This document shows positions 8,271-63,529 of a stretch of DNA of 64,000 nt, piece by piece (the stretch's first letter is position 1; each line of letters opens with the position of its first letter). A program made the translations under genes and the position numbers. Origin of the DNA: Nereocystis luetkeana (lineage: Eukaryota; Sar; Phaeophyceae; Laminariales; Laminariaceae); contig JARUPZ010000020.1 of NCBI GenBank assembly GCA_031213475.1, positions 8,855,562 through 8,919,561 of the forward strand. Direction: 5' to 3'. The notes beneath the pieces were generated by a model. It had not been told where the DNA came from and did not search any database. It saw nothing but the letters and a program-made list of their open reading frames with translations.

Positions 8271-10071
8271 GCAACAACAACAACAAAGTCGGGCGGTTTC
8301 ACCGAAACCGTCTCGGATATAAATCATCCGCAGGTAAACGCAGAATCATGCCGCGAGCGTGTAGCGCGACACCTTGTTCTGCGCAGTTTCAGCGCTACTC
8401 GTACCTGGTACAGTAAATGTGTTAGCATCCCCTATTGAATAGTCTAACCCCTCAGCGCCGGGTCATCGCTACAACGTGCGACCGATGCTGTAGAGGCCCT
8501 TCCTCTCTTTGCCATTTTCGCCTCTCAGACGCCAATGGGCTATAAACGCATGCGCAAGACGAGGTCGGCGGCTCTTCCGTCGCAAGAAAGAGAGGAAATA
8601 AAGGAGCCGAGAGCGAGATTCAAGGAACGCCCTGAGAAGAGTCCAAGGAACATCCTGAGAAAAATCTACGGAAAACTATGAGAAACAGTTCCGAGATCGT
8701 TCGCAGAACTATCCGAGGAACGTTCTGCGACAAACCATGCGCCCGAGCGGCGGGCGAGCGAGTGCTCTGGTCTGCCAAAAATACAGTCACCTACCAGGTG
8801 TTAACTTTGGTCGTCAGCAGTATGGAGGTTGAGACTTGCTTAGCCCCGCAATGCGGCAGACTATCGTACCACACTGGGTGATAAGATGACACACCCGTAT
8901 CACAAGAGTGATAAGCTAACACACCCCCTAGGATGAAGTTGCTATTACGGGGGACCATAGTAAATAGGGCCTACGTTACACACAAAAACTTACCAGGTAT
9001 ACATTTACCTATTTATGCTCTCAATATTTGGTCCTATTTACTATGGTCTCCCGTAAGAGCTATTCTCTCCCCCCAAGGCCGGGGGAGCACTCACACACAC
9101 GAAACGGGAACGGTGGCGTTGGAATGGTCCCGACGAGACATTTCCACCCATGCATCGCTCGGCGCAATGCAAAACCCTACCCGTTGCGGAAACATGCGGT
9201 TTTGAAGCTCGTTCTGAGGGTGGGAGCGGTATCTCGCGTGTTACAAAAATCTACTATTAATACACCAGGTGTAACCTTCGGCAACAGCACATACAGGGGC
9301 TGCTGACGGGGGTGGGCTTCGAGGCCCGCTTAGCGCCACATTGCGGCAACACAGACTATTCAGGTCAACCAGACACAGAAAGAAAAGTACGATAAAAAGA
9401 CAAAACATCTGCCACCCTCCTATTTACTAGGCGAAACTTACTTGCTTCCGTTTTTTTACCGCACGAAAGAAAATATCTGCCGCCCCTCTCAATGGATATA
9501 TATATATTTTTTTAGGCCTGTTCACGGGTCGGGTCGAATCTCGCGGGTCAGGCCGAGTCGGGTCGGGTGACGGTGACCGGGCCGACCCGTGATCATTTGA
9601 GTACCTGCTGAACCGACCCGACCCGACCCGACCCGTGATATTTCAAAACCTTCCTGGCCCGACCCGCGGGTCGGGGTTGCAATTTTCTTCTCACAGACGG
9701 TTTTTTCTCAACCATTGCAATGGCCAAGGTAAGAATACCCCACACATATTGGTTCGATGAGTACTTCGGTGAACAAATAAAATGCATTAGATACCTCCCA
9801 AGGGGAATGTGCTATGTCGGCCCTTCTGCATGGGCTAAGTTTAGACCTCTTCAGGCGAGGGCTCTCAGAACACGTAAGGTGCTGCGTACGATTTCTCTAA
9901 AGTTCCACGTGCAGTCTGTATATACCGAATACCTGGTACACTTTTTTCGAGACTACAAGAACTAGGGGACAAAAAAAGTATCGCTTCCCTACACAGATAA
10001 GAGCAGAAGTGCAATGCCTTTAAAAAAATCGAGCATCCTCGTTGGAAGGACGAGGAGTTACAACTCAACCC

Positions 10072-10103: not shown

Positions 10104-13100
10104 TATCCCTATCCCTGTTCCTATCCTAGCAGGCGTGTCTGGCGCGGATCAACCAACGCACCGCCCTCGTCTTCGTGGCGGACAGACACAGTGAAGGACG
10201 AGTTGCTGACGGAAGAGATGCCTATCTGGTAAGCGCAGTCCTCGCAGAAGTTGGGGCCCGTCGAGTCGATCATCACGAAATCCGAGCCTGCCGCAGCGCA
10301 CGTCGGGAAGAGCGAACGCACCCCACCCCACCCCACCCCACCCCATCAGAATAGGCGGACAACGGCGACGACGTAAAACGAGAGGGGAAACGACCAGAAA
10401 AATAGGCGCACGGGGAGGGGGGGGGGGGGGGGGGGGGGAGGGCGTACTCGTTCGTTGCTTGCCTTAGTCTTTCGACCATTGACCACGCATCCCTTTAGAG
10501 ACGGAGAAAAAGCGTGGGGGGAGGGGGGGGGGGGGGTGTACTCATTATCATGCATGGCCGTAGTCGTATGACAATAGAGGGGGGGCGGGGGGGGCTCGAT
10601 AGGAGAGATGTATTCGATCTCATGCATGGCCGTAGTCGTATGACCATAGACCCTCGCATCCCTACAATGCCGGGACGGAGCATGTCGGGTTTTCACCGAC
10701 CAGGCAGACATTGCTTGCACCAAGCGCGGAGCGCCGTGGGGTATTGGGCGAGTCGCATGAAGGGTGAGCTGCATCCTACAAAAAAAAACGCCTGTGAGGC
10801 GGACTTGCATATGGATGACAGCTTCAATGAGATAATTTAATTTCCGGTGTAGCCACTTCCATAGACAGCCATGGGAGTACTATGTAACTGCCTCTTGGGT
10901 GCCTTACCATGAACAAACACTACGAGATACGACCACTCTCCTTGTGCGGAGTAAAGGTTTTTCACCTCGCACCAATGATCTAACTCGACAACCAGCGGTG
11001 GGCGGCCGCCAAAAAAAAAAAGAAAAAAAGTACCCTGGTTGTCTAGCTCACGTAGTGAGCGGCATGTTTTACAGTGTCGTTGCCAATCGACGCCAACCCA
11101 ACCTATAGACAAAAAGGGGGGGCTGAATCGTGCCCCCCCCCCCCCCCCCCTCCCCCCGCGCTTTTCGTTTCCCTTCCTTCTCCCACGAAGCCCAGGCTGC
11201 GCAAAACAAGAGTAACCTGTTGTGAACTGCAGCTATTAATAGTGCGCGGCACAATTTCGCCCTCTAACTGCCACATAAATCATCCTACACATTTTTTTTC
11301 ACGAAAATTCGTCCAAAACCAGAATGGCATTTGCAGCGTTCAAGGGATTTAGAAACAATGATATTTTGGGCCAGGCTCACATGCCAATCTGGACGGAAAA
11401 ATAAGCAACGTTTTACATTGAACTCAGAGTGCAGAGAGGGATTGTATTCCGACCAGAGCGGTAGTGGTATTATTAATAGTTGCTCTTGCAATTTTCGGGC
11501 TGTGTCCGGCTCAAACTAGTTGGTGTGGACTGCCCGAAGGTAAAAGACAAAATGGTTTCAATTGTGTTTCGTGCAAAAGTCGACCCTAAAATTATCGACT
11601 CCCGAATGATCAAACCTCCTCGTAGACTTGACAACATGGTTTTTGTTCGTATCGGCGCAAAAGCCGTGCCTACAATTATCAACCCCCAGATCAGGAACCC
11701 CTTGAAAACTACCCGGTGAAAAATATTGTTACGTTTCGTGCAAAACTCCGGCCAAAAAAGTCTCACCTCCCAAGATGCTCAAACGCCTATGGAACAAAAA
11801 ACTTGGTTCAGTTGTGTTTCGTGCAAACCTCCAGCCTAAACAATCTCAACTCTCAGATTCTTGAAACGACGTTAGGACAAAAAACATGGTTTCATTTCTT
11901 TTCGTGCAACGAAATTGAGCCTGAACTCCCAAATCATCAAGATTCCTTCAGAGCTTCGCCCACATTTTGGGTGTCACGACACTTGGAAATTGGCGTGGGA
12001 ACATAATCGCAGTGCATAAAAAAAAGGCTACGTGAATTGTATCGGGTACCAGGTACATGCTGTACGTATACGCGTGGAGACCAGTCGGTGCTTTCGAAAA
12101 ATCTCGAGAAAAACGGAACAAAACGGTCCAGCATTCCGTACCACTCTGTCCCTAAACAGAATCCCGGTTTGTATACTAATATTCAAGATAAATGTTGCTA
12201 ATATTTCTGGACAGAGCGGTATTATTTACCCGTGCCGCCCGTGCTTTAAAAAAACGGCCCAATGCAGCCTTTGCCCATGACCTACAGTAGTCGGCGGACA
12301 GTGCCGCGCGGCCTGCTCGTGTGCCTCTGCTCTACACGCGCAGCTAGCGAATGCACACCAAGCCAAGAGGTACTCGAGAGTGACCCCCTCTCCTTCCATC
12401 CTCCTCGCCTTCTGCTAATACAAGGATAAACCCCGACTTACGTCAGTAGAGCCCATGACTATCATGACTATCATTACCAAAAAACAAAAGTCAACTCAGT
12501 TGGTTGACAACAGGAGTCATTCATAGTTCTTTCTGTACGCTTGACTCTGGCAAATATTTTCGGTTTATTTACCCGTGGCGCCTCCCATCCAGTGGAAGTT
12601 GTGCGGCCCCGGCAGGGCGCTGCCCCCGGCGGCGACGTAAAGGTCCGGGTCGCCGGTTAAGGCCGTCAGCACAACCTTTTTTTTTTCCAAAAAACAAAAA
12701 CGAAACCGAAAACGAAAACGAGAAACGCACACACATGCGTATAACACACGGAGAAGAAAGAGAGACCCCCAAGCAAGTTAATAAAACAATAGGAGTAACC
12801 AGCAGCGAAGTAGAATGAAAAGGGGGGGGGGCGTTTGGATGGGGAGGGGGGGGGGGGGGGTGGAGAGGTTGGAGGGCTGGGGGTGGAGGGCCGGGTTGGC
12901 GTGGGAGTGGGGGGGGGGGGGGGGGGGGGGGGGTGAGAGGGAGGGGGGGGGGGGGGGGAGTGAGCTGAAGGGGGGAAGGGGGTACTTACTTATGAGAGCT
13001 GAAGGGTGGGGGAGGCAAAGAGGGCCCCTTGCGCAGGTGTTCTCGCGCCATAAACTGCCGCAAGCCGTACCATGTCTGGTATCACGTACCAGATACCACG

Positions 13101-23300: not shown

Positions 23301-24184
23301 CTGAGGATCCTCACTTGAGCATATTGTAGCAGTTCTATATCTCCCACCCAGCAACATACGTTTTTCAAGCAAAGTTGTACGCTAATCCCGATCCACGAGA
23401 ACATGGGAGTATATAGCTTTCAAACCACCAGCACGCCGGCAACATCCTCGAGCCCCATACAGGGGTGGGTGCGATCGTTCTTCAGCTCCCTTTTTTCTCT
23501 CCGAATGGTGAGGGTGTCATACACGAAGTCGCGAAAGTTACGTACATTTTTGGAAGGCTCTCGACCGCCCAGATTTTTGTTTTTTTTTTCCCCCGAAAAA
23601 GCGTCGTTCGGTACCTGGTAGAGTTGGCAACCTTGCCGTCAAGAAAAAAAATCGAGCGCTCTAATAGAAAAAAAAGGAAAAGAATCGCACCCCAGTGCGA
23701 AGCCAATGCTCGAAACCGTCGTACCCCTCCTCCCTACATTGGCATTGCTCCGACATCGGTCACTTCCAGTCAGTCGCATGCTACGTTACAAATACACCTG
23801 ATCATTATTGAGGTTCCCGACCTAAAGAGCTCTGTTAAGAGCTATCCGATGAGCGATGCCATGGCTCAGCTCAAGCATGTTGTCAACAACTACAGTAGTA
23901 GTGAAAAAACACAACAATATATGTTCCGACGATATTGAGAATCCCTCTGTTTAGAGGAAACCCATCGCGGCCAGAAACGCTTCCGCCAAAAAAGTGATAT
24001 ACCCCTATTTGCAGGCTCTAGTAGAGTAGAGTAGCACGTGTCAGTGGTCCGTGCGTGTGCTTTTGTCACCTCCACTTCCCCGTACGCGACCGTGACGATG
24101 ACTTCGGAAGCCTGTATCTGGGGAGTTCCAGCCACCTGCGAGGCGAAAAAAAAAAACACGAAATCGGCACCGATCCCATCAAGA

Positions 24185-24218: not shown

Positions 24219-26205
24219 TACTCATATGTTGCTTGCCTTAGTAATTTGAACATTGACCACGCATCCCTTCCGAGACGGAGCACCGTTCCTATTCCGAATA
24301 CAGACTCCCTCAATATCCGAGTGAACTCTGAAGAATCACGGAGTTGAAGAATGCGAGGAGATATTATAGAACGAAGAGTATCTGGCTGTCGGCTCTCTCG
24401 CGGGGGGAAAGAGACTGATGGAGGCACTCATCAGTGCAGCATCGTCCTCCGCCCGGAGCGACTCGTTGAGGCCAGCGGCTGCTGTGCCCTCGTGAGCAAC
24501 CAAGGCTCTAATGGGGGCCCTTTGTTCTACCAGGGTTTGCCTTAGTATTAGTATCATAAATACGGTATGATACCACGGTACATGAAATACCAGAGGGTAC
24601 CATACCAGGTATGTTGTACGGCAACCAGAAAAAACAAATTGCGCCGCCTGCAGCTGTTGGGGAAAAAAAAAAAAAATCGAACATTTTTTTTTTTTTTTTC
24701 CCACAGCGGCGGTACGAGGAAATTTTCGGCTGTTCTTTGAAAGCAATATATTTGAAAAAAAACTTTTGAAATTCGCGTTTCCATTGGCATAGGTTTAACA
24801 CTGGCCCTTTAGGTTCACAAGCAGTGTTAGGGTTAACCTGATTGGCTCAGGGTTAGGAATAGGGGTACTGTAGTTATATTCGTCCTATACACAGACTGCC
24901 GTAGTGTGTCGACCATTTTCTCTACCAAGTGAGCTACAAGCTACCTTAACCCCTTTAGAACCGCGGTCCCGTTTTGGGGACAAACCACTCAAATTCTAGG
25001 TAAATTGTCCCCCAACCGGGACTGGTTAGCCCTTTTAGGGCCGCAGTCCCGTTTTGGGGACAAACTACGCGAAATTTGAAAGGTTTGCCCCCATCACGGG
25101 ACGGCGGTTCTAACAGAGTTAATGTGTATAGACGCACCCGTGTACCGGTACTCGTCCGCTACCAAGGTGGTGGTGTACCGTAGGTACCGCTTAGGCGCCG
25201 TCGTCTTGCTGCTGGAAATAACCAGATGCCTCGTATTCTTACAGTCGTTTCATCAGAGAGCTGGGAGAGGAAACGTGTCGAGAAAAGAGACGACGACGTG
25301 CGTAATCGGCCTGTCGGTTACAACAACCAGCAAGGCTTGCGTGGGTTGCTGGGGCAGGGGATATGTATGTCCGAATTGCAACGCAAGGATATGCACGACA
25401 CGCACGAAGCGCGCAGCATCAAAGTGATCTGTCTATATACCTGTTGTACTGCTACTGCTGCTGTTACACGCTGGACACTTTGCGCACTATTTACGACACT
25501 GCTGTACCAGGTACACAGGTACGTCTGATGTACCGGTATACCTGGTACCAATTAATATCATATCATTCTGTACCAAAATATAAGCACTGTTTTTATATTA
25601 AAAATTATTACAAACTATCCTTACATTTTCGGTCAAGAGTGGTACAGTACATGGCTGGAATAGCAGAGACCGGTCTTTCGGGAGCGTCAAGACAGTCCGT
25701 CGATATACCAAGACCCACGGGGGGCTTTCAATACTGTTTTTAGCGTACATTAGCGGTCAGTCAAGAGGTCAAACCGCGGTCTCCTAGACTATGTGATTCG
25801 TGATTCGTGACGGTATGATACCTGGGTTGTCCAGTCTCATTTTTTTCTGAACACGCCGCGCCTCTCCCCTTTACGAGTACGATTAGGTAATACGCTGCTG
25901 TTGTGCACTGGAAATTAATAGGTGTCTCTATTCACCTTGAAGTAGTTTGCATCGCCTGTCTCCGCGCTGACCCAGGGATCTCCGAAAGCTTTCCCCATCT
26001 CCAGCTTGCATGGAGCTTTCGCTGGGCACGGCGGTGGCAGTGGGGCTGCTACTACTACCGCTGTGGAGCCTGAGCCGGATGGAGTATTAATAGAGGTCGT
26101 TGCAGTTTCCTCCGCTAGTGCTCCCTGTCCTGCTGCGATGCTCGTTGCAGCGAGCATTGCGAGGACAAGGGAAGAGCGGACTTGTTGGGAGGTGAGCGCC
26201 TTCAT
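1945..26205 (-). CDS. Large secreted protein with tandem PPC-like repeats (multi-exon, 3' end outside window)
   Basis: I assembled this gene by translating the minus strand and requiring GT-AG borders and matching phases. Exons in order: 25936-26205, 24070-24135, 22883-22990, 22513-22637, 21392-21569, 20405-20509, 19233-19409, 18159-18271, 15366-15555, 12573-12675, 10162-10287, 7707-7902, 6436-6565, 3536-3598, and 2053 down to about 1945. The first 14 join without a frameshift (1,950 nt, 650 codons). The product has a signal peptide (residues 1 to about 31). About six repeats follow, each with a YY or YF strand, a GDPDLYV-like strand, a P-x-NFxW segment and a C-xx-C-xY-x-IGV strand. This pattern resembles bacterial pre-peptidase C-terminal domains. 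I infer an extracellular or cell-surface protein; the ligand is unknown. Introns run from 245 to 2,837 bp and carry MITEs, retroposons and satellites. The 3' end is not seen. Confidence 0.72.
2081..2465 (+). repeat. CAG/CAA trinucleotide-rich tract
   Basis: Interrupted by the A element at 2118-2231. Open in several frames only because of the repeat. Confidence 0.8.
2118..2231. mobile_element. Family A MITE, diverged
   Basis: Internal AAATAGGATCTACGGTACAC and the closing GGTCCTATTTACTATAG match the family; the left terminus is changed (ACGGGAGAGCATAATAG). Confidence 0.65.
3086..3196. mobile_element. Family A MITE
   Basis: Both termini intact: CTATTACGGGGGACC and GGTCCCCCGTAATAG. Confidence 0.85.
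3231..3490. repeat. Family C GATC-rich repeat
   Basis: Contains AGATCATCTACAGGCAGATC, GAGGTGCTGTGCAGGACCTG and CAACATGAGCTAGATCATAC. Confidence 0.7.
3536..3598 (-). CDS. PPC-repeat gene exon 14 (tentative)
   Basis: A 21-codon phase 0 segment, VVNGRCRVYAPAQP to TASPS, after acceptor TTTCAAAG, with the weak donor GTTTTG. It resembles the opening strand of the other repeats but lacks the usual linker before it, so a further small exon may be missing between 3.6 and 6.4 kb. Confidence 0.45.
4346..4545 (+). repeat. 52-bp tandem repeat, four units
   Basis: Units start near 4351, 4403, 4455 and 4507, each with ACCGCACTGTAGAGGCATG followed by TCCCCTACCGATCAACCCTC. A C run precedes it (4320-4338). 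Confidence 0.9.
4605..4826 (-). mobile_element. D retroposon, partial
   Basis: ATCATGCATGGCGGTAGACG, GACCATAGACCCTCGC, CCGGGACGGAGCACGTGGGG and GGCGAGTCGCATGAAGGGTG. Little of the G run is left. Confidence 0.7.
5556..5855 (+). repeat. 75-bp tandem repeat, four units
   Basis: Units start at 5556, 5631, 5706 and 5781 with ATTGCCGCTAGTGATGGGTA. Each contains an internal inverted pair, GGGTATCG and CGATACC. Confidence 0.92.
6292..6402. mobile_element. Family A MITE
   Basis: Both termini intact, of the GTTAACAGGACC subtype. Lies in intron 13 of the PPC gene. Confidence 0.85.
6436..6565 (-). CDS. PPC-repeat gene exon 13
   Basis: 1 nt plus 43 codons between acceptor TTTTTCTCAG and donor GTTTGT. 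It encodes WTSKGMPVKAITAQG, then PYLIGVFGI and TFSVIATFSQ. A family A MITE sits about 35 bp downstream of the donor in the intron. Confidence 0.74.
6878..7112 (+). repeat. TAA microsatellite, about 235 bp
   Basis: AAT/TAA repeats with a few C and G interruptions, in PPC gene intron 12. Confidence 0.95.
7707..7902 (-). CDS. PPC-repeat gene exon 12
   Basis: 196 nt in phase with both neighbours, acceptor TTCAACAG, donor GTTCGG. It encodes TLLVHGRPQAGWVHAG, then MHYYLVRPE, LTVTLTT and GQGDLYMARRNES. The split Ser codon joins exon 13 to give TTYSWTS, the expected NFxW-like position. Confidence 0.74.
7970..8040 (-). mobile_element. D retroposon, 5'-truncated to about 70 bp
   Basis: GTGTACTCGATAGGAGATAT, ATGCATGGCCGTAGTCGTAT with G runs on both sides. 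Confidence 0.65.
8091..8290 (+). repeat. ACCAAC hexamer array passing into CAA array
   Basis: About 20 ACCAAC units to 8217, then CAA units. Confidence 0.95.
8942..9056. mobile_element. Family A MITE with CCAGGTA micro-insertion
   Basis: The internal AAAAACCTATA of the family reads AAAAACTTACCAGGTATA here, i.e. the TA is split by CCAGG and doubled. Confidence 0.85.
9525..9675. repeat. GGGTC inverted repeat
   Basis: GGGTCGGGTC-type repeats on the left and GACCCGACCC-type repeats on the right, with CGGGCCGACCCG in the middle; could fold into a long hairpin. Confidence 0.75.
10162..10287 (-). CDS. PPC-repeat gene exon 11
   Basis: 2 nt plus 41 codons plus 1 nt, from acceptor TGCGGCAG to donor GTGCGT. 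It encodes SDFVMIDSTGPNFCEDC, then AYQIGISS and SSFTVSVRHEDE. The donor GTGCGT is the same hexamer used by intron 3 of the minus-strand HSP70 gene. Confidence 0.72.
10419..11107 (-). mobile_element. Nested E, short D and full-length D retroposons
   Basis: Three G-run heads in series: E at 10419-10510, a 60-bp D fragment at 10517-10577, and a full D at 10578-11107 ending CGCCAACCCAACCTATAG. The full copy includes an internal A run (11010-11028). Confidence 0.8.
12573..12675 (-). CDS. PPC-repeat gene exon 10
   Basis: 34 codons plus 1 nt. Encodes VVLTALTGDPDLYVAAGG and PGPHNFHWMGG. The acceptor is unusual: AG follows a run of A rather than a pyrimidine tract. The donor is GTAAAT. Confidence 0.72.
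12826..12970 (+). repeat. G-rich tract
   Basis: G runs at 12843-12860, 12911-12933 and 12946-12958 in purine-rich sequence. Confidence 0.8.
13208..13300. mobile_element. Family B MITE, left arm diverged
   Basis: Right arm TTTTGTCCCCAAAACGGGAC followed by CTAAAAGGGTTAA. Confidence 0.65.
13697..13915. repeat. Family C GATC-rich repeat
   Basis: Contains GATGATCTATCTGATCTGTC, GAGAGGCTGTGCAGGATCTG and AATGAGCTAGATCGTGC. Confidence 0.7.
13932..14037. mobile_element. Family A MITE, degenerate
   Basis: Retains ACACAAAAACCTATATGTT and GGGCCATAGCAATCAGGACC, but the right end is altered. Confidence 0.5.
14227..14845 (+). repeat. 155-bp tandem repeat, four units, each carrying a MITE terminus
   Basis: Units start near 14236, 14390, 14545 and 14699 (at CTTCAAAAGAG). 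Each includes GCTCAAGCCGGCCCATGCTC and ends with ATCACGGGAGACCATAGTAA, the left end of a family A MITE. A fuller MITE follows the last unit. Confidence 0.9.
14826..14935. mobile_element. Family A MITE at end of tandem array
   Basis: Left end CACGGGGGACCACAGTAAAT; right end diverged (GCTACGGCCGCCCGTAA). Confidence 0.7.
15366..15555 (-). CDS. PPC-repeat gene exon 9
   Basis: 190 nt: 1 nt plus 63 codons, between acceptor ACCCGCAG and donor GTACCA. It encodes FCTECTIYLGIYGY, then GGYSILAS, the linker QEGFPQQGTV, then KQYYEFFNPPG. It therefore closes repeat 3 and opens repeat 4. Confidence 0.76.
15600..16025 (+). repeat. ACCAAC/ACCAGC degenerate array
   Basis: Related in unit to the array at 8.1 kb, but older and more varied. 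Confidence 0.8.
16481..16557. mobile_element. Family B MITE, diverged
   Basis: Right arm CCTTGTCCCCAAACCGGGAC; left arm weak. Confidence 0.55.
16667..16783. mobile_element. Family A MITE with TTAATA micro-insertion
   Basis: The family reads TTTTTACTAACAATA; this copy reads TTTTTACTATTAATAACC, an extra TTAATA after TA. Confidence 0.8.
16887..17048 (+). repeat. 18-bp tandem array, TGCCTCTACAGTGCGGTA
   Basis: About nine units. The reverse complement of the unit (ACCGCACTGTAGAGGCA) is the core of the 52-bp array at 4.3 kb, and one diverged unit lies at 45707-45731. Confidence 0.9.
17143..17412. repeat. Family C GATC-rich repeat
   Basis: Contains CCTGCCGTTGTGAGAGGTTG, GGCAACATGAGCTAGATCAT and a run of CAGATCATA steps. 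Confidence 0.7.
17646..17791 (+). mobile_element. D retroposon with 19-bp target site duplication
   Basis: A 5'-truncated plus-oriented copy ending ATCGAGTACACCCCC with a poly-C tail. GCCCCCACTGCAGCATGGT stands at 17627-17645 and again at 17792-17810, exactly at the borders: a target site duplication. Confidence 0.85.
18159..18271 (-). CDS. PPC-repeat gene exon 8
   Basis: Starts in phase 0 with DIYVTTNRT after acceptor CTCCGAAG and ends in phase 2 (CG) at donor GTAAGA. It contains PGPKDYDVKS and NWAGSLTVMF. The split Arg is completed by exon 9. Confidence 0.74.
18319..18832 (-). mobile_element. D retroposon, near full length
   Basis: G run, ATCTCATGCATGGCCGTAGT, GGCGAGTCGCGTGAAGGGTG, internal A run 18737-18748, end CCAACCCAACCTATA. 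Confidence 0.8.
18856..18925 (-). mobile_element. E retroposon, short
   Basis: G run then GTACTCATTCGTTGCTTGCC and TGATCATTTGACCAATGA. Confidence 0.65.
18988..19165 (-). mobile_element. D retroposon, partial
   Basis: GTACTCATGCCATGCGTGGC, CTACAATGCCGGGACGGGAT, GACATTGCTTGTTCGCACC. Confidence 0.7.
19233..19409 (-). CDS. PPC-repeat gene exon 7
   Basis: A 59-codon phase 0 exon, ASLNSGW to TDGGQQ, between acceptor TGCAAAG and donor GTGACT. It contains AQGSFDYYALLIPR and ASVVITLTP, the opening strands of repeat 3. Confidence 0.75.
19434..19700 (-). mobile_element. E fragment followed by D retroposon
   Basis: E head GTACTCATTTCTTGCTTACC, a second G run (19494-19506), then D from CGTACTCACTGTCATGCATG to CGCTTGTGAGGCGGACTCCG. 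Directly adjoins PPC exon 7, whose acceptor is at 19410. Confidence 0.75.
20265..20325 (+). repeat. GCA microsatellite
   Basis: About 20 GCA units, PPC intron 6. Confidence 0.9.
20405..20509 (-). CDS. PPC-repeat gene exon 6
   Basis: A 35-codon phase 0 exon between acceptor TACGCAG and donor GTGTGT. It encodes SEELSEFC, then ACTYVIGVS and NCSYTIQ, the cysteine-bearing strands that close repeat 2. Spacing of the cysteines matches exons 9 and 11. Confidence 0.74.
20884..21412. repeat. Triplicated PPC exon 5 donor region
   Basis: The exon 5 3' border ACCTGCATGTGAAGCG (at 21390) recurs at 21161 and 20957. Each is preceded on the plus strand by TCTTCTG.GACCCCC and GCATGCA stretches. A B MITE is inserted between two units. 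Confidence 0.75.
21182..21277. mobile_element. Family B MITE
   Basis: TTAACCCTTTTAGGACTGC to GGGCTGCGGTCCTGAAAGGG. Inserted in a tandem unit of PPC gene intron 5. Confidence 0.8.
21392..21569 (-). CDS. PPC-repeat gene exon 5
   Basis: 178 nt: 1 nt plus 59 codons, between acceptor AACGCAG and donor GTGAGA. It encodes YFSIAVEEN, then FFGDPDMYVS, then PTPENFTW, the clearest PPC-like stretch in the window. Copies of its 3' border recur twice further into the intron (near 21161 and 20957). A family C repeat begins directly at its acceptor side. Confidence 0.78.
21572..21800. repeat. Family C repeat, reverse orientation
   Basis: Begins directly at the acceptor of PPC exon 5 and includes AACGGCAGGCTAGGATCTAT and TCATGATCTAGATCTTTC. 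Confidence 0.65.
22372..22482. mobile_element. Family A MITE
   Basis: Both termini intact. It lies just downstream of the PPC gene exon 4 donor, inside intron 4. Confidence 0.85.
22513..22637 (-). CDS. PPC-repeat gene exon 4
   Basis: Starts after the acceptor AACAG with LMVLVNATS and ends in phase 2 (CG) at donor GTGAGT. The split Arg codon is completed by the first base of exon 5. It holds the last strand of repeat 1 and the linker LEDGLPVQ to repeat 2. Confidence 0.72.
22883..22990 (-). CDS. PPC-repeat gene exon 3
   Basis: A 36-codon phase 0 exon between acceptor CGCACAG and donor GTGAGC. It starts VYARSGG and contains PTPTECDWEGG, the counterpart of the P-x-NFxW segment in the other repeats. 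The intron to exon 4 is only 245 bp, the shortest in the gene. Confidence 0.7.
23028..23150 (-). mobile_element. D retroposon, 5'-truncated
   Basis: GGTTACTCGATAGAAGATAT to CTACAATGCCGGGACGGAGC, then a second G run (23136-23154). Confidence 0.7.
23188..23362. repeat. G-like direct repeat pair
   Basis: GGATCCTCACTTGGGTATAG and GGATCCTCACTTGAGCATAT, both followed by TTCTATATCTC and CACCCAGCAACA; related to the interior of family G. Confidence 0.55.
24070..24135 (-). CDS. PPC-repeat gene exon 2
   Basis: A 22-codon phase 0 exon between acceptor CGCAG and donor GTGACA. It reads VAGTPQIQ... to ...VAYGEVE and continues the NYFK strand of exon 1. A poly-T run of 11 lies just before the acceptor on the coding strand. 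Confidence 0.65.
24186..24292 (-). mobile_element. E retroposon
   Basis: A G run of about 30 (24186-24216), then CATACTCATATGTTGCTTGC and ACCACGCATCCCTTCCGAGA. Confidence 0.7.
24953..25122. mobile_element. Two family B MITEs in tandem
   Basis: TTAACCCCTTTAGAACCGCG starts the first, truncated copy; TTAGCCCTTTTAGGGCCGC starts the second at about 25027, which ends AACAGAGTTAA. Confidence 0.75.
25936..26205 (-). CDS. PPC-repeat gene exon 1: signal peptide
   Basis: Exon of 90 codons, ending AAG before the donor GTGAAT. The start MKALTSQQ is followed by a hydrophobic core and an Ala-rich cleavage region ending GQGALA, then a Ser/Thr/Pro-rich linker and the first beta strand (GDANYFK). An in-frame ATG 15 codons upstream (26250) would also give a hydrophobic N terminus. 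I prefer 26205 because it gives a normal signal peptide length. Confidence 0.7.
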
Positions 26206-26250: not shown

Positions 26251-27949
26251 AGCAGAGCGCAGAGCTCACAGCAATACAAGATGCTCCTAATCTCCCAATT
26301 CCCAGCTCCGAATTAGCTTCGGGATAAAAGGTGATTGGATGAACAAATTAAGGTGGGATTAAACCGATTGAGCAAAAAACGCGCCGCGTCCATATAATCA
26401 ACCAATCACAAGGGGCTATTTTGTACCTGCTATATTATCCCGTAAACCAACAGCAGTAGCGGCAGCAGCAACGGCACACACTCCAACCCGATACTAATCT
26501 CCGGCTGTGTCCATCGAAACGCTGGCTCTTCAGCGTTTTGCCGAGCGGGAAGGGGGCAAGTTAATTGAGGCGCCCAAGTATGCATGCATTTTGTGTGCAT
26601 AAACGCATATATATGTGAAAGTGTTACCTACTACTGAGCTATAGGGGTTAAAGACCGATCGATTACCCAGCCCAAGGTAATCCGTATGACACATACCTGG
26701 AATAGAAAACATTTGGGACTCTCAGTGACAACACACACCACATACATAGGTAGGTAGGTCACGATGTTATCAACCGTCACAAGTGAGAACGAAGTGGCAC
26801 ATCATGCGGCGTGCGCGTCGGATGTGCGTTATTTTGCATTGTAGCTCGGGTAACCTCCCTACCTCACCCAGTAGCCCGGGTTGGTTATAGGGGGCCCGGT
26901 GCTGCTGTGTCCTTCCTTGTTATGTTATAATAAAAAGTGTTACATGATCAGAGACTGCTGTATGTGTTGTTTGATAGGTACCAGGTAGTTATTAATAATA
27001 GTTGTTCAGTATATAGCTGTGCTTATTTTATTTTATTTTCTGCGCCGGAGCGCGAGAGGAAACCCCTGTCCACACTTGTTTCTCAAGTTTTCGTGTACCG
27101 GTTCGAACCCCGTTCGTTTCTTCCACCTTGGTCGGGCCTGCCTGTGGCCGTCATTAAAGTGTGGTTTACTCCGAGGATGTAGGCACCTGAATCTATAGTG
27201 CGTACTGTATTGATAACACAGAAGAGTAGTACTTTAAGCGGACAGCAAGCAGGATTGAACCGTTGGGTTTACTATCAATAGTGGGCACATTGCACCGTTG
27301 TACCTTGAGAGCGTGAACAAGAGAACGCCGTCAATGACGCACGACCTCTGGGGGACGGGCTGCTTCGATCTTGATGGCGCATGCGCTAAGGAGCACAGAG
27401 GGATGGCTTCAAGCACGGCCAAACCACTCCAACCATCCACACTGCATACCCGCCGCGAGAAGCGCACAGCCCGGAGAATGGGGATCGCAATGGAGCAGCC
27501 ATGAAATCATAGCTATCATAGCTGATGGAACAGCCATTGTTGTTGACGCTCGCGCAATATTTCATCATGCATGCCCAGAATATGAAGCCCCCCTGGTCAC
27601 AGGATATACATACTTCAAAAGCTGGAGCGGACCAAATCTCAGGAGGAAAAATATATTTATAGTAAAATCAAACAACACCAAGCAGTCCGATACACATCGT
27701 GACTGAAACACATCGTACATCTTAAACAGCTAAAAGTCAATCCTTGCACGATTCGGAACCTAATCCACTGAGGCCGCATGCGAAAAATAAACTGAAACAA
27801 AATGAAGTGAAGAAATGAAACGAAACACCCCAAGTCGAAGAGAATGAGAACAACAAGGGTAAGGCGAAAAAGCAGACACTGGGGGCAGGCGAGGGAGTCC
27901 GCGCGGCCCTACGCTAGTTATGTACTCATGGCGCTGAGAAGGCACGCAT
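26251..27949. other. Gene-free stretch upstream of the PPC gene
   Basis: No supported gene. It would include the PPC gene promoter just right of 26205 (AT-rich TATATTATCC near 26430). One TACCAGGTA at 26979 and TATTAATA near 26992. Confidence 0.5.
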
Positions 27950-31830: not shown

Positions 31831-32149
31831 GTGTAGGTGCCGGGAGTCTGTCGTGGGTATAGATATATCGATGGTAGCGAGGGCAGCAAGAGCAGCCGGA
31901 AGAAGGACGGGCGGACGTGAAGACACCAACAACCCCTCTCTTCTGTCTCAGGAGGCATTATTAATAAGCCGTGGAACTCACGGTCAAAATATCAAATTTC
32001 GAAAAAAAAAGGCTTACCCACAGCGGGCGACCAGGATGATGGTGTCAAACATGTGTTGGGTGTATAAGTCTGTGCTTGCATGTATCAGCCGCAGATCTTG
32101 GGGACGTATCACATTAAAAAAATATACCAGGTATAGCGCACCCAGCGGG

Positions 32150-35592: not shown

Positions 35593-39835
<4,243 letters not shown>

Positions 39836-40276: not shown

Positions 40277-40640
40277 CGGTGGTATGAAGATGTGTTTGTT
40301 TGGATAAAAGTTATGTACCTGGTACTTATGACAATGCAAAGCTGCATCCGACAACTCATTATTTTCGTCGCGCCAATATGTCCAGAAAAGTAATGATTGA
40401 TATAGTGACTTTCCTTACATTTCCACTAGCTGGCTAAAACAGCTCAGAATGTACGCTTAGCTACGGTCTAGAGCAGCTCTAGAACGCAAACTCTGGCTAC
40501 CTACCTAGGCTCTAGGGCAGTTCTACAGCAGACATTTAGAGTCAGATGCTGGTGAGTCGTGGACGGGCGAAGAATTAAAAAAAAACGCCAAACGAACATG
40601 AAGGCGACGCATGATGATTGGTTAAAAACATACCGCGTCT

Positions 40641-40890: not shown

Positions 40891-46677
<5,787 letters not shown>

Positions 46678-49640
46678 TTGCTTTGGCAAGAAAACAATGT
46701 GGAGGCGTTTCTTGTATTGGGTTGAGGTTTGCAAATTTGTCGCGGACGGTACGAAGTGAGTTTTTTTATCTCAAGTCTTGTTAGGCTCGGGGTTGGGGTT
46801 GCAAAAAGAAATGACGGCCGGGCAGAGCATCTGTTGCCCACGGTCTGTGTTTCGAGACATTTTGCAGTTTCTGGGGATAGCTGCTTGTTGTTTTGAGTCA
46901 TGGATTGGACGGCACGGCTGTCCCAATGCATGCATTCCTGTCCGCAGCTTTTTGTAGGTTTCGATGTTGTTTTTGCGAGGGCGGATGACGGCTGAGTTGG
47001 TATCGGTTCGTTTAGTCATTTATGTAGAAATACGCGAAAATCACCTACTTCGTAATTCTCCTTGATTCGACCAGCAACGGAGTGTGTGGTGGTGCGGTGT
47101 TCCGATGATCGGGTCACAAGCTGCACCGTACCGCTCGTGCAGGGGAAATTTCTTACGGAAGGGTGCGCGCGTGAATGCCGGCTGTATACCGTGGCTTCGT
47201 CTGTGGTGCCGTTTCCGTCGCACTTGGCCAGGTGTAGATCGTTGTTTTTATCTGTGCTTCCGTCGTGCCCTTCAGGCGGCTTTTTTTTTGTGTTATTAGT
47301 TGAAGGAGGTTTGTTTCTTCTGGTGGTGTCGACATGCTTTTATCCGATACGCTTGAGATAGTGGTGGACTGAAGGGCTGGCTGGTGGATAGACCGTTTCA
47401 TGTGATAGGGGCTGCATGTAGGCGGCCGTGTGTAGGGGATGGGGGGAGGCGAGAAAGGTGCGCAGCGCCCGACCCTTTCTCGTGTGACGTACGTTGCCTG
47501 GTAACTTTGATGTGCCAGTGCAACCATTTGGTGTCTGTACCAAAACGGCCCCGGAGCAGGCTCGAGAAGCAGTTGTTTGTACACGGGATCTTATCTGGTG
47601 CTCTGGTGTGTCGTCGGGGATAGTTGGAGGGGTTCCCCGCTGGAGGCATGCCGGTGTGTGCAGTAGCAAATGCTGGTAGGTGGAAACGATATGTATTCGA
47701 TTTTTGTTCGTTAGGTCCTACCTGGTCTTGGGTACCTTGTACCCTGGTATGTGTTTAGGAGAGGTTTGGGGAGATCTCTGCAGGAGCGGTGTTGGTGTGT
47801 ACGATAGCGAACGATGGTTGCTGGAACATGATGGCATGGTCTTGTTTGCGCGAGTGACCGCCACGAGGCGACAAGGTATATAGAGCAGAAAACTGCTATT
47901 GTATCATAGCGTGTGGTGTGTAGCACGTGGCGGCCGCCCCTCGTGTGAGTTGGTGAGGATGTTCGCGATTTACTTGCAAGAAGAGGGGTGGATCTTGTCG
48001 GATGATGTCTGTAGGATGCATCGCGATATCGGTTTGAATCGTTGCCAACTATTAAATAAGAATATTGAACGCTGAACACAGCCCGCCCGGTGAGGTGTGT
48101 GAGGCGATGGCTGTCCACCTTTCTCTCCTTTTGGTGGGACGGCGTCGTCGGATCGCTTGTTTCGTGGCTTTGTCGTGTCGTTGGGTTATTCGGAGATGTG
48201 CTGTCCCTTTCGCCGTCCGCATGGGGAAAACATGGGTGTTCGCCATCACTTGATATAATATACCTGGTAGGATATTCAAACTGCTTCTTTCGCAGCCTCT
48301 GGGCATGATGAATCGCAAGGCCTTGCTGCTTGCCGCTGCAGTGCGGTTGAGGGACCGAACCAAGCGATTATTGATGCTCTTTTCAAGTATCATGAAAAGT
48401 GATGGTAGAAACGTCGAAGAAACAAACGGGAAAACAGTACTGGTATGGCCGTTCATTGCTGTACCGATATCTCGTTTTCGTCGACTTTCTTGGGCCTTTT
48501 GGGTGGTCTGTCTACGGTTGCGGCTGCTGCAACGGGAATAGCCCATCGAGCCCGAATGAACACCGTTGGATACCTTGCACAAAATACTGGGATGCCATAT
48601 ACTCGTAGGGACACGCGCAGGCAGCTAACTAACTGCACGTCGCGCCGGCTGACCTCTTTGTCATGAAGAAGCACGTACTAGTAATACGTATCTGGTACAG
48701 CGGTACTGTAGTAGCGGTCCCTCTTTAGTGCCGGTATGATGTGCACCAGCCAACAATACCTGCACTATATGTAGCGGCAACCGGCACTAATGACTCCGCA
48801 CGCTACCACACCGGTTAATCTAATCTGTAACAAGCGATCCCACAGGCATTATATATTGCGTGCAAGCGGCACTATAGGACTACTACTACTGCTGTAGATG
48901 GTGGTATGATCAAAGTACGTACGTCCCTGGTAGCTTGGTAAACGTGTACCATCATGTCTGGGAATATAGTACGCGCTTGAAGGGTTCTGTGAATACCAAA
49001 CGATTGTTACATTTCCGGCCAGAGTGGCACCAGGACAACATATATACCCTTTTCATTGTTGTGTGTAGAAAAACAGTCAGATGAAAGGGCTAGGGCAGAC
49101 GAGATGCTTGAAAACCTCCGGCTGTATGGCTGACTTCTGGCCGGGAGTTAAAACAAATGAGTGCCTGAAGGCCCGAGCGAATCGAACGACCTCTTCCATG
49201 GAGTAACATGAAGCCACCCGGGGATGATTGATTGTAACCCCGCCTCCAAAACGCCTCGAAATGAGCCTTCCTATGTCCTTGGACCAGTCGAAATGGAGCA
49301 TGCTCGGAAAAAAATGGCGGTTTCTCGGGAAAATTTAGACCCCAACCGAAGGGGCGTACATAAAAACAAATCCATGGCCATCACCCCCCCACGCCCACGC
49401 CCGCCCATGGAGGGTCGAATAATTGTTTTCAACACGTTGCCCCACAAGCATCCACAATGAATGAATAGGGCACAAATAAATGTGGTGCACTCTGGAAGTT
49501 CAGGCCTGCGCAACGAAACCGATCTCCACGTTTCCGATCAACCGACCTCATCTCATTCGGCGAGGTACTGTTTTGTACTCGGCCTTCCATCGTCTGAAAG
49601 AGAATATTCGCGATCGGGTTTCACAGAAATCGCAGAGGCG
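46678..49640. other. Gene-free stretch downstream of HSP70 copy 2
   Basis: Open frames here are short or compositionally odd and I recognise none. Holds one TACCTGGTA (48261). The interval 47560-47860 has two related GTGTGT.AGTAGC-like segments. Confidence 0.45.
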
Positions 49641-49692: not shown

Positions 49693-49847
49693 GGGGGTAA
49701 ACATTAACCACCCCCCGACCCGAAAACATGTACCAGGTAACCTTTTTTCTGCTCGTGTATGCAAGGGGCACACGGCAACACATATATATAGCCTGCTTAC
49801 GAGACTGCTGGAAAGGGTCTGCGACCTAGTAATGCCTACCTTGCCGA

Positions 49848-53199: not shown

Positions 53200-54540
53200 T
53201 GGTTCTAGCGCAGTCAAGCTTTAACGCCTAGCAAAAGTTCCCCGAATTCACGAGAGACAGGCAGAGGGTGGGAGAGGAAGGGGAGGACGGCGCGAAAGGC
53301 GTTGCGATCATTGAGCCTGTGTGATGGGGTAGGGGCTGTGAGTTGTATATATTTTATTTCACGACGTTCACACGCGCATCTCGGTCCCACAGCGTCCCCA
53401 GCGACGAACCCGCCCATAAAAAGGAGCCAGATACGTGTAGCCGCCAGCCAGCCCCCATCTCCTTCGAAAATGAATAGGAGAACTAATGTATCTACGCCCC
53501 TGCTTCTGCATGCTTATCATCGATTCTGCGTGAAGTGCACACGGTCATCGCACAGCAATACGTTTTCAGTATTTCTGTAGTGAAGTGGAGTGGAGGAAAG
53601 AGGTAAGCGTGTGTTTGGAAGTTGAGTTGGGGGAGGAGGAGTCGGTTGCGTGGAAGAGACCAATGATGCACGGTCATCGCATGGTTACAGGTTACAGAGT
53701 ACCGCTCTTGACCGAAGTATAGGGACCGTTCGGATAATAAGTTAGTATACAAAAGGCGCTTACTTTGAGGGACAGAGTGGCATGTACCAGGTATAAACGT
53801 ATGCTTCGAAGTATAATTCGCGCGTACGATGTGTGTACGCCTGGTAGGTTCTGGCATCATATGCGCGTACACACATAACGTGGGAGCAAAGAGGATTCCG
53901 TGCCCGCAGTTTTCTGATTGGTCAATTTTTAATCCCGTATGTTTTGATTGGTAGAAAATCCTTGGTCGACACATTTGCCGTCACCCGGAATCGTGACGCA
54001 GGGGGGAGGGGCTGCTGTGTCGTCCGATTTTTCAGGACCGTGGTGCCCCTCTCTCTCTGTGTTGCCCACCGAGTAGGTAGTGGAACGGTGTTGGATCCAC
54101 CGGCGTGTTGGATCCACCGGCCGGTTGAAGAATAGGGATATCCTATAAAAAGTACGACGCGCACGACAGTAATAAGGGGGGGGGGGGACATAGTATTCGG
54201 AACCAAAAAAATGGTGTGGAAGTACAGGGGGGGATACCTGCAGCCTGCGGCTCTCGGGTCTATCATCGGTCCTGATTAATAGGGGCCCCCGTTATATTTA
54301 TAGTAATAAATAGGTCTAATGGGGTTGGGAGTTATGCGAGATTGTTCCACCAAGGTCGATGCTTCGTTGGAGAAATGCTCGGAGAGGGGGGCTCAGTCGT
54401 TGTTTGACGGTTGAGACGCTCTGGGGCATGTTGGTGATAGGAGGCTTGTTGTGCGTCAAGTCGGTTTAGGGTGTCGTATACCTCGTACTCCTGAACTTTT
54501 TTTTTTGTAGCGGTCTTCGCTTTTTTGTTTGTTCGCCATT
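53200..54540. other. Gene-free stretch
   Basis: No supported gene or named repeat apart from one TACCAGGTA (53785) and a partial A-like segment near 54265-54330. Confidence 0.45.
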
Positions 54541-55490: not shown

Positions 55491-55859
55491 ACAACTCGGG
55501 AAACGTGCCCTGCGAATGAGTGGCCCGATTGCCCAGACCAGCCCCGACACTGAGCGGGGGGGGAGGCAGGACAAAAATACGCGAGAACCATCCCCAACCA
55601 AGCCCAAGAACAAAAAACAAACAAACAAACAAACCGACAACTCTGGAACACACCTGCCAGAAAAAAACCGACCCGAAAACTCGGAAAACGTCAACAAGTA
55701 GAAAAACCACCGCCCAGAGTCCAGGAAAACGTCAAGAAAGAAATATCGAGTGCAGCCGAGAAGCGACGCACGCTGTAGTACATTGTTGGGCGGCAAACTT
55801 AAAGTAGTAATGATGGAGGTTAAGCAGAAAGTAGGTGCAGAAAAAAAAGGGAGTAAGAC

Positions 55860-56185
55860 TTCGTGCTTGGGTATACTTTTGGTTTTGGGTTTCCCTTGGT
55901 TTTGTTGTAGCTAGGAGTGTTTATGAATGATCAATGCTGAAGCTCACATGCTGCACATTGTCGGATGGCGAACGCAACAATGATATAATGATAATGATAA
56001 TACTAAGAGATTAGAAAAAAAACAATAGTAATAACAATGATAATATTATACTGATAACAAAAACAATAACAATAACTTGGTGCGTGGGTTTCCTTTTGTT
56101 TCGGAGGTTTTCTTCGTTCGGGAAAGTTATGAGTGATCAATGTTGAAGATCATGCTGCACATTGTCGGATAGTAAGAGAAATAAT
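55860..56185 (+). repeat. Two family I copies with AT-rich spacer
   Basis: GATCAATGCTGAAGCTCACA and GATCAATGTTGAAGATCATG, each followed by GCTGCACATTGTCGGATRG and AATAA-type simple sequence. No gene is visible. Confidence 0.7.
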
Positions 56186-56588
56186 AACAATAACAACAAC
56201 AGCAATGACGCAACGACACTCGCGGTATTTTTTTTGTTTAGGTTTTTTGCTCTCCGACGCTGCATCGCACATGTTCCAGTCCGACATAAACATCGACTAT
56301 CCTCTATTAATAGCAGCACAGTGGGTCGTCGTCTCTCTTCAACCAGTCTGAGCCAAACGATACCCCACTTTCCCTTCTTGAAGGCTCCTCCGTAAACCTC
56401 TCCCTCCGTACCTCGGCAAACCCTTGTTTACCCTATACTCCTCGTCACGTAGCGTTCCACTCCCACGTACATTGTCAGCAGCTGTCCGTCCTACCGGTTT
56501 AGAGTGGGCCTCGGAGGCGGTAATATTCAATTAACACGAACTCATGTAATAATAATATCGTCTTTCCCTCGGGTGTACATGCTTGTCT

Positions 56589-56697
56589 TATTACGGGGGA
56601 CCATAGTTAACAGGACCTGTGGTATACATAAAAACCTATATATTTAACCATTTCTACTAACAATGTTTGGTCCTGTTAACTATGGACCCCGTAATAG
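56589..56697. mobile_element. Family A MITE
   Basis: GTTAACAGGACC subtype with both termini. Confidence 0.85.
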
Positions 56698-56940
56698 TTC
56701 TTTTATCGTATCCTCGAGAGAAACAACTGACACGGTTATAAACCAGCCATTCAGATGGACAGCGGGCTTTTGGTAGATGCTTCTCCGGGGGTTGCTTAAG
56801 GAGGGGAGTGGTCGTTTTTTGGTGGATGAGATGGAGGGGCGTTGGCGGTAGCATTCTTCCATGTTCGTCACATCAGTTTTGATTTGTCGTTGGATACTGC
56901 CGCGCTTTTGTTCTGAAGAGTTCCTCACTTTCTGTTATTA

Positions 56941-57051
56941 ATATTACGGGGGACCATAGTTAACAGGACCTATGGTACACATAAAAACCTATATGTTTAA
57001 CCATTTTTACTCACAATATTTGGTCCTGTTAACTACGCCCCCCCGTAATAG
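56941..57051. mobile_element. Family A MITE
   Basis: Near copy of the element at 56589. A TATTAATA site lies at its left border. Confidence 0.85.
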
Positions 57052-57170
57052 TCGTTTATTCGAACAACACTACACATTATTGTCGGATGGCAAGCATAAT
57101 AACAATAGTTGATAAATAATAATAGTTGATAAATACCTGGTAACAATAAATAGTTGACACCACCAGCACT

Positions 57171-57279
57171 ATTTACGGAGAACCGTAGCAATCAGAACCC
57201 ATCATATCCATAAAAACCTACAAATTCCGGTATTTCTACTAACCCTATCGGGTCCTGATTACTATGTCCCCCCGTAATG
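57171..57279. mobile_element. Family A MITE, diverged
   Basis: TTTACGGAGAACCGTAGCAA to ACTATGTCCCCCCGTAAT, of the ATCAGAACC subtype. Confidence 0.7.
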
Positions 57280-57639
57280 GGCATTACCAGGTATTCAAAA
57301 ACACTTAACACCACTATTAATAGGAACAACAGCGAGTTCACCCATCCAAACCCATATACATCACACTACTACTCTGTTCCAAAATAACACAAGGACGGGT
57401 GTGATTTAGTTTTAAACTACAAAGGTTCATTACATCGATGGGCACAGAGTGGCACTGGTACATAATACATAAAACGACGGCTGCAAGTAAGTCTGGTCTA
57501 TGCCCTGGGTGCCTGGTAAACAATCATGCGCGGGCACTGATATGGCGGGTACGGGCTGCAACGTCCAGTCCCCGACAGGCTACATCCCACCACCCGGACG
57601 GTCCTCGCGAGGTTCTCTCAGCTCCGCAATCGATTGCTG

Positions 57640-57768
57640 TTTGTTATGATACTGCTTTGTATGAGGTTGAAAGCCCGGTAATTACCTGGGTTCTGGCACT
57701 GGGATCGTATTTGTAGTACTTGGAAGGCGTATCTTAGGTGGAAAACCAGGGGTTTTCCATACTTGATA
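57640..57768 (-). repeat. Family H repeat, partial
   Basis: Reverse-oriented half: ATGATACTGCTTTGTATGAG to GTGGAAAACCAGGGGTTTTC. Confidence 0.75.
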
Positions 57769-57942: not shown

Positions 57943-58489
57943 AAGGTATCCCTCATTAATTATTAAGAAACGACTCGTAAACACCCCCCAGAAGAGAAGA
58001 GGAAAGCCGCAAGGCAAGGCTAAACAAATACCCTTGTCTGGTCTGGAATATAAAGACCATTTACCCAGTAATACCAAGACCAAGCGGTCCTTCTATTTAC
58101 GCCCAGAGTGGTAGTTATATCTGGTACGTACGTAAATGCTACCAGGTACAGGAGTAGTTTCGAGTTACACAGCAACAGCAGTGTTTTATGGGTGACAGTT
58201 GCACTGTAACTACTAGCTGCTGCTGATGTGGCTTATTCTTGAAAAATGAATTCCAGTAGGTTCCTGGTATCAGGTGCCTCGTATATATATTATACTCGTA
58301 TATATACCAGGTATACCTGGTATATCAGTTGTAATTTTTTCCGTCGAGCACGGACCAGTCAGTGCTGCAGCCTCGGCCCGGACGCGCCTTACGTTGTTCT
58401 GTTACAACTATTAGGATAGGAAGGCGGCAGTTCTGGGGCAACTAAAATGGAATCCATGCTATGATTTACCTGGTATGTACCTGGTACTG

Positions 58490-58596: not shown

Positions 58597-58875
58597 TCTA
58601 TGGTCATACGACTACGGCCGTGCATGAGATCGAGTTCAGCTCTCCTCTATCGACCCCCCCCCCCCGCCTCCCATGCTCCGCCTCGAAAAGGATGCGTGGT
58701 CCATGGCCAAATAAATGACCAAGGAAAGCAACTACTACGGAGGACCATAGTTAATAGGACCTATGGTCTACACAAAAACCTACCAGGTATATATTTACCT
58801 ATTTTTAATAGCAATATTTGGTCCTATTTGCTATGGTCCCCCGTATCAAATGTGTGCACCCCCTCCCCCCCCTTA
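58597..58875 (+). mobile_element. D fragment followed by E retroposon split by a MITE
   Basis: D tail ATGGTCATACGACTACGGCC to TCGACCCCC (58597-58665), then E from TGCTCCGCCTCGAAAAGGAT, interrupted by the family A MITE at 58733-58846. Confidence 0.7.
58733..58846. mobile_element. Family A MITE with CCAGGTA micro-insertion, nested in an E retroposon
   Basis: It splits an E element between AAAGCAACTA and TCAAATGTGTGCACCCCC, and itself contains AAAAACCTACCAGGTATA. Confidence 0.85.
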
Positions 58876-59320: not shown

Positions 59321-59574
59321 CTGCGATAGAGGTTCACCCTTATTTTTCCGAGGCTCCTCACATAAATAAGGAGCCCCATACCTCGCCCGAAAACTGGCTT
59401 CACTCAGCAAAAATCAAATTGCATCCCGATAAACAGTCCCATACCTGGTATGCCCCAAGTATACAAAAACGTCAGTTTTCGAAACAAGCTTGGCATTCCG
59501 ACGATTTTGGGCTAAGGAGCGCTGTCATCCGGAAAACATTTTAGCGAAAAGGTGCTACCTCTATCGTAGAACGT
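59321..59574. mobile_element. Family G MITE with TACCTGGTA site
   Basis: TTCTGCGATAGAGGTTCACC to CTACCTCTATCGTAGAACG. It carries CCCATACCTGGTATGCCCC where the other copies read CCCATGGCCC. Confidence 0.85.
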
Positions 59575-60976: not shown

Positions 60977-61204
60977 GTACGTAAATATATATATATACCA
61001 TACTTCGAAATATTTATGTATATGTGCTTTCTATTTGATGTTTGACGTATACTAATGTAGTATATATATACCAGGTACCAGGTATATATATATATTTATA
61101 TATACACATATATTTATATATGGCCGGCGACGGATTCACCGTACAGAATGGGCCCTCATCTACAAGAAACACCCACTGTTACTATGAAGAAGCCTGTATC
61201 CCAT

Positions 61205-61826: not shown

Positions 61827-61955
61827 TACGGGGGACCATACTACGGAGGGCCATAGTAAATAGGACCAAATAGTGTTAGTAAAAATGGTGAAATACATAC
61901 CAGGTAGGTTTTTGTGTGTACCGTAGGTCCTATTCACTATGGTCCCCCGTAATAG
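61827..61955. mobile_element. Family A MITE with CCAGGTA micro-insertion
   Basis: A truncated left end (ACGGGGGACCATA) is followed at once by a second left end and a full element. Contains AAATACATACCAGGTAGG. Confidence 0.85.
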
Positions 61956-62046
61956 TAAATAGGACCAAATATTGTTAGTAAAAATGGCGAAATACATAGG
62001 TTTTTGTGTGTACCGTAGGTCCTATTTACTATGGCCCCCCGTAATA
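61945..62046. mobile_element. Family A MITE, empty-site control
   Basis: The next copy, sharing its border with the previous one, reads AAATACATAGGTTTTTG with no insertion. Confidence 0.85.
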
Positions 62047-62322: not shown

Positions 62323-62420
62323 AATATAACTTCGTGCCAGGCACGTACCAGGTATGTATGCATGCATGTATGTATGCATTTACGTATGCATGTTACTGCC
62401 GCCCTATTAGGCATACCATC

Positions 62421-63385: not shown

Positions 63386-63407
63386 CGCGGCACACCACAA
63401 AATAATA

Positions 63408-63529
63408 TTAGGGGGGACCATATTCAATAGGACCTACGGCACACAAAAAACCCTACCTGGTATCTATTTCGCTATTTAGCTATCTTTGGTAACAAGATTT
63501 GGCCCTATTTACTATGGCCCCCCACAATG
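63408..63529. mobile_element. Family A MITE with CCTGGTA micro-insertion
   Basis: Contains CCCTACCTGGTATCTATTT where the family has CCTGTATATTT. Termini AGGGGGGACCATATTCAA and ATGGCCCCCCACAATG. Confidence 0.8.

Follow-up and report, generated by a model that had tools for sequence, protein, structure and literature searches.

Dispersed TA-CCWGG-TA insertions in the brown alga Nereocystis luetkeana resemble excision footprints of a TA-targeting DNA transposon

Results

The window analysed here is a 64-kb stretch of the Nereocystis luetkeana genome (C20:8855562-8919561, with positions counted from its first base), and genome-wide counts refer to the assembly of 465,085,209 bases in 1,987 contigs. 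It contains two very similar HSP70 genes with introns, which lie in inverted orientation at about 36401-39949 (minus strand) and 40804-45330 (plus strand); one HSP70 exon shows 97% identity with a protein of Scytosiphon promiscuus and 91% with one of Pylaiella littoralis, which marks the host as a brown alga. Long poly-C/poly-G runs occur across positions 1-64000 (CCCCCCC is found 471 times on both strands, versus 16 expected), as do CAG, AAT and CATA microsatellites, and inverted repeats that contain a CCCGGTAATTACCTGGG-like word internally are present in three copies at 54755-57734. The repeat termed family A, a palindromic MITE of ∼110 bp (TTACGGGGGACCATAG...CTATGGTCCCCCGTAA), has 21 aligned copies in the window, which span positions 1519-63523.

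Scattered among these features are 35 exact copies of the palindromic word TACCWGGTA (Table 1), here referred to as scars. Only 0.48 copies are expected, and the largest count in 100 dinucleotide shuffles was 3, which agrees with the ∼35 sites against ∼0.5 by chance given in an earlier note on this DNA. Simple repeats aside, TACCWGGTA is the top-enriched 9-mer in the window by our own score. The enrichment extends to a 264-kb sample, comprising the window and a further 200 kb from the same chromosome (137 copies versus 2.4 expected from trinucleotide composition), and to the whole genome, where a count against a control, as the same note had proposed, gave 182,395 copies versus 1,744 for the reversed pattern, a dispersal far above chance. 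The flanking sequences vary between sites, and across all 137 sites in 264 kb the centre of the word on the top strand is A in 74 cases and T in 63. The assertion that coding exons are free of sites was examined for ∼3.3 kb of approximate HSP70 exons, which contain no scar; this zero says little because ∼1.7 sites would be expected there at average density. Comparison of the HSP70 gene pair at intron scar sites revealed no match between the copies.

Table 1 Positions of scars and of selected family A copies in the window
Feature	Position	Strand	Remarks
Family A MITE copy with scar (filled site)	61854..61954	-	alignment of 21 window copies
Scar TACCAGGTA	61898..61906		in filled copy 61854-61954
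Adjoining family A copy, plain TA (empty site)	61953..62046	-	window alignment
Scar TACCAGGTA	8991..8999		in family A copy 8943-9060 (+)
Scar TACCAGGTA	58781..58789		in family A copy 58733-58845 (+)
Scar TACCTGGTA	63454..63462		in family A copy 63406-63523 (+)
Family A copy with CCGG-type scar (TA-CCGG-TA)	43400..43511	-	scar at a different TA
Scar TACCAGGTA	57285..57293		just past end of family A copy (57173-57278); 56957-57076 aligns as an empty relative
Scar TACCTGGTA in second repeat family	59442..59450		empty relatives 29361-29551, 51189-51383
Adjoining scars TACCAGGTA then TACCTGGTA	58305..58322		
Tandem scars with one common TA, TACCAGGTACCAGGTA	61069..61084		
Two scars TACCTGGTA	58467..58486		starts 11 bp apart
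Two scars, 25505 A-centred and 25539 T-centred	25505..25547		starts 34 bp apart
Scar TACCTGGTA	8402..8410		
Scar TACCTGGTA	9930..9938		
Scar TACCAGGTA	12047..12055		
Scar TACCTGGTA	23612..23620		
Scar TACCAGGTA	24603..24611		
Scar TACCAGGTA	26979..26987		
Scar TACCAGGTA	32125..32133		
Scar TACCAGGTA	37893..37901		between HSP70 exons; in non-HSP70-like part of ORF 37851-38594
Scar TACCTGGTA	39128..39136		between HSP70 exons
Scar TACCTGGTA	40316..40324		
Scar TACCAGGTA	41699..41707		
Scar TACCAGGTA	41798..41806		
Scar TACCTGGTA	44175..44183		upstream of HSP70 exon
Scar TACCTGGTA	45736..45744		
Scar TACCAGGTA	45927..45935		
Scar TACCTGGTA	48261..48269		
Scar TACCAGGTA	49731..49739		
Scar TACCAGGTA	53785..53793		
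Scar TACCTGGTA	57134..57142		
Scar TACCAGGTA	58140..58148		
Scar TACCAGGTA	62346..62354		

Two adjoining family A copies at 61827..62046 had been described in the earlier note as a filled and an empty site. The two are 93% identical when the scar is excluded, and they do differ by exactly 7 bases at one TA. The scars noted in three further copies (starting at 8991, 58781 and 63454) are likewise present, with the caution that they share one TA position with the scar at 61898. Alignment of the family A copies in 264 kb to a consensus gave 71 rows, three of which are duplicates, leaving 68 distinct copies with a mean divergence of 11% and unchanged scar counts. The 71 rows contain 48 insertions of at least 4 bp, the commonest length being 7 bp (13 insertions), and the motif is present in 11 of these 13. 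With two more at other gap lengths there are 13 scars in 12 copies, distributed over three TAs with 5, 1 and 7 scars, and the filled and empty sites among the 68 copies differ by insertion at TA with duplication of the TA. The nearest relative lacks the scar in all 12 cases, although in one a scarred copy is almost equally close. Since the nearest relatives are unscarred and scars are also found at other TAs, these are separate events, and the view that the sequence was inserted and is not ancestral to the repeat is upheld. A single ancestral event behind the four window scars was considered and rejected on the basis of the unscarred nearest relatives, though several of the scars share a TA. 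Family A therefore displays repeated independent insertions, at TA, of CCWGG and a second TA. The family accounts for 14 of the 137 sites in 264 kb, including one in a truncated copy outside the alignment; these 14 lie in 7.4 kb, versus 123 in the remaining 256.6 kb.

The insertions are not confined to this family. A self-alignment scan that was not directed by the motif returned 28 gaps of 7 bp, and TACCWGGTA makes up 8 of the 11 that have a 2-bp flanking duplication and the only one with a 3-bp duplication. A scar in a second repeat family has empty relatives within the window (Table 1), and outside the family A mask 11 sites could be matched to one or more empty sites, with a number of these matches weak or located in scar arrays or low-complexity sequence.

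Target preference was determined from 212 pooled arms after 62 scar-like arms had been removed. A is avoided at +1, T is favoured at +6 and A/T at +7, and background is reached from about +9. These features are present on each arm separately at the 109 sites where both arms are scar-free, with a slight asymmetry between arms that was reached by 7 of 1000 permutations. The preference around the TA is thus palindromic and AT-leaning. Scars also stack in tandem at 7-bp spacing, with 8 tandem words in 264 kb, which fits because each scar supplies TA-N5-TA. One-mismatch neighbours of TACCWGGTA are in excess, both as transitions (79 versus 19 expected) and as transversions (56 versus 37), corresponding to ∼6.5% change per site. 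From this transition-rich decay it follows that the scars are inherited and, on average, not new; they decay like neutral DNA.

Several related words are also enriched in 264 kb, including TACCGGTA (22 versus 4.3 expected) and TACCAGTA (18 versus 7.4), whereas the short form TACCTGTA, unlike TACCAGTA, shows no enrichment (10 versus 10.7). One further pair behaves unequally, with 7 copies of TACCAGGGTA but none of TACCTGGGTA, each versus 0.8 expected. The scars thus have a main form of five bases and minor forms of four and six. The rarer forms CCGG, CCAG and CCAGGG are consistent with imperfect joining of staggered ends. Separately, TACAGTA (108 versus 32) and TACCGTA (75 versus 32) are enriched in the same 264 kb, as is TATTAATA, and TACAGTA may represent a second class of footprint.

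The main family A hot spot has 119 places in the genome where a base other than T follows TACCWGG. Among the 100 of 119 matches listed, 77 are TACCAGGG and 1 is TACCTGGG, 15 end in C (9 with central A and 6 with T; mostly decayed scars) and 7 end in A (central A in 5, T in 2). The extra G is therefore nearly confined to scars with a central A (77:1), which suggests that the ends of the putative transposon read 5'-CCAGGG, although the hot-spot search covered one orientation of the extra-G form and the TA there favours A anyway. The centre base does vary with the TA, being T in 5 of 5 scars at one family A position and A in 5 of 7 at another; this site dependence and the arm asymmetry are not predicted by plain random mismatch repair.

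A resident source element was sought in several ways. All 110 occurrences of TACCWGG without a following TA in 264 kb were inspected by eye, and no recurrent continuation starts at the motif. Among the matches listed, a paired-end search at 20-12,000 bp in 264 kb yielded nothing beyond clusters of scars and pairs of family A, and a search for TA-flanked inverted repeats of up to 4 kb was dominated by family A. Of 129 sites in 357 kb put to a downstream-repeat test, three gave a match and none of these is a source element, one being the boundary of a family A copy, one a decayed scar next to a repeat and one a coincidental match; the 22 candidates for CCAGGG/CCCTGG ends were just words internal to repeats. 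The hot spot was also used as a trap, and the 40 of 119 places inspected (20 TACCAGGG, 7 A-ended, 12 C-ended and 1 TACCTGGG) are all scars that by eye run on into family A, and hold no transposon; in the 20 TACCAGGG places TA follows directly in 13, G and then TA in 3, and other sequence in 4. Neither the 264 kb nor these 40 of 119 places contain an element with TA-CCWGG...CCWGG-TA ends, and the full transposons with TA-CCW...WGG-TA ends that the earlier note had proposed to search for did not appear there, a sample that hundreds of surviving elements genome-wide could escape. Scans of ∼2.9 million viral contigs gave 9 matches to a tandem scar word, regarded as chance, and none to a family A word.

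Transposase searches gave no DDE_3 match (controls matched in 3 of 14 genomes) and no Transposase_1 match (the control matched in no genome), and 28 DDE_1 matches, with a control that gave none. Where visible, the DDE_1 ends read TA-CAGTACCGG or TA-CAGTGGGG, those at the pogo-like loci L048, L051, L054, L038 and L040 being TA-CAGTACCGGCC... or TA-CAGTGGGG... These visible ends begin CAG, and CCWGG does not stand next to their TA; the scar predicted from CAG ends is therefore the 3-base form TACWGTA. The elements ended by TA-CAG would account for TACAGTA being enriched in its own right. L038 and L040 have blocks in common at 99.7-100% identity, which suggests that these pogo-like elements were recently active. 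Identical 3.5-kb DDE_1-bearing stretches (L055, L056 and L057) occur on contig C2 and two small contigs, and contigs C1099 and C1378 have equal DDE_1 match scores. The 20 DDE_1 loci examined contain 10 scars; a single one of these, located in a family A copy, could be matched to an empty site within this set of loci, and the scars of L050 and L052 fall outside the portions aligned to other pogo-like copies, giving a weak hint that the scars are mostly older than the DDE_1 elements.

Discussion

We propose that the TACCWGGTA scars are footprints left on excision by a cut-and-paste DNA transposon, one that targets and duplicates TA and cuts with a 5-nt stagger, a reading to which we assign a probability of roughly 0.77. 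Both ends of such a transposon would begin 5'-CCAGG(G), and cleavage of the non-transferred strand five bases inside each end would leave a 5-base 3' overhang, CCAGG, on each flank. The overhangs could pair as C-C-x-G-G with a central A.A mismatch, and end joining with mismatch repair would then yield TA-CCAGG-TA or TA-CCTGG-TA. An A.A mismatch between identical CCAGG overhangs would, we infer, give the central W. Occasional trimming, or a cut one base longer, would produce CCGG, CCAG or CCAGGG, and the resemblance of TA-N5-TA to the preferred target would lead scars to attract new insertions and to stack. We know of no precedent for a 5-base stagger at TA, which, if real, would be a new cleavage geometry.

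Excision of Sleeping Beauty and other Tc1/mariner elements gives footprints of the form TACWGTA, with a central mismatch. The scars share with these systems the TA target and its duplication and a palindromic, AT-leaning target (PMC7827188, PMC7913693). Sleeping Beauty footprints are described as the 3' overhangs, joined by NHEJ (PMC7827188), and the footprint would likewise equal the 3' overhang in the alga. Tc1/mariner footprints are reported as 2-4 bp (PMC7913693), whereas the algal scars have five bases, are very uniform and number ∼180,000, with no source found. Hence the likeness to DNA-transposon excision scars seen in the earlier note stands, and membership of Tc1/mariner is not claimed here, since five bases exceed the lengths reported for that group. 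Similarly, the Stowaway and Osmar5 elements of grasses are reported to leave TA with 1-4 bp of the element end, in several forms per site and with insertion beside an old footprint (PMC1925063). Those footprints come from individual gene loci where elements survive alongside them (PMC1925063), whereas the algal scars are genome-wide and their element is missing. No account of footprints with such sequence or on such a scale was found in the limited open-access library searched, and the words 'footprint' and 'excision' are absent from the main text of a curated Ectocarpus repeat paper (PMC12477816).

The pogo-like DDE_1 elements are a resident candidate for the origin of the scars, as they too have TA next to their ends and some look recent, with two loci sharing nearly identical blocks. 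Their visible ends begin CAG and predict a scar of three bases, unlike those observed, and the corresponding TACAGTA is enriched as a word of its own, making these elements a very unlikely source. Alternatively, the ∼180,000 scars, for which no source element turned up in the 264 kb or in the 40 of 119 hot-spot places inspected, could reflect micro-insertion without a resident transposon, in which nothing enters a TA but a short end fragment, or extrachromosomal or viral DNA that integrates and then leaves, so that the chromosomes would carry no copies. We consider this improbable, as the target preference on two arms, the variant lengths and the TA duplication are the outcome expected of a DDE transposase followed by end joining, and surviving elements would have escaped detection even if they numbered a few hundred; nor do we know of any process of this kind.

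Scars without elements would also be accounted for if the elements resided in the genome of another nucleus, cell or life-cycle stage and were excised from the sequenced one by programmed elimination. The internal eliminated sequences of ciliates are comparable in being cut out at TA-related sites that number tens of thousands; their junctions retain a single TA without added bases. The algal scars differ in being inherited and decayed, as their transition-dominated mutations indicate, and are therefore not remade in each generation. We know of no programmed elimination system in brown algae and regard this origin as extremely improbable. Almost as difficult to maintain is a functional or ancestral motif, such as a binding site or part of a repeat, kept under selection. 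The very many exact copies and the palindromic nature of the word would be in keeping with it, but filled and empty sites coexist at three positions of one repeat family with unscarred nearest relatives, the decay looks neutral and the flanks are unrelated between sites.

If the scars are excision footprints, the transposon itself may be a ghost, with CCAGGG ends, a 5-base staggered cut and a turnover so fast that no copies, or almost none, survive, a tentative reading that we hold at somewhat less than even odds. It would have left one scar per 2.5 kb of the 465-Mb genome, and its scars would recreate the target and seed tandem arrays. The activity of transposons is usually counted from surviving copies, and in this genome the footprints are far more numerous than any source yet detected, such that a transposon family could shape a genome and yet be absent from its repeat library. 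Were the ghost transposon real, the genome would keep a dated record of cut-and-paste events that is invisible to repeat annotation that looks for elements. The scars are datable, independent and target-resolved events in large numbers, and from them the outcomes of end joining, the choice of target and the rate of transposition could be measured over brown-algal evolution.
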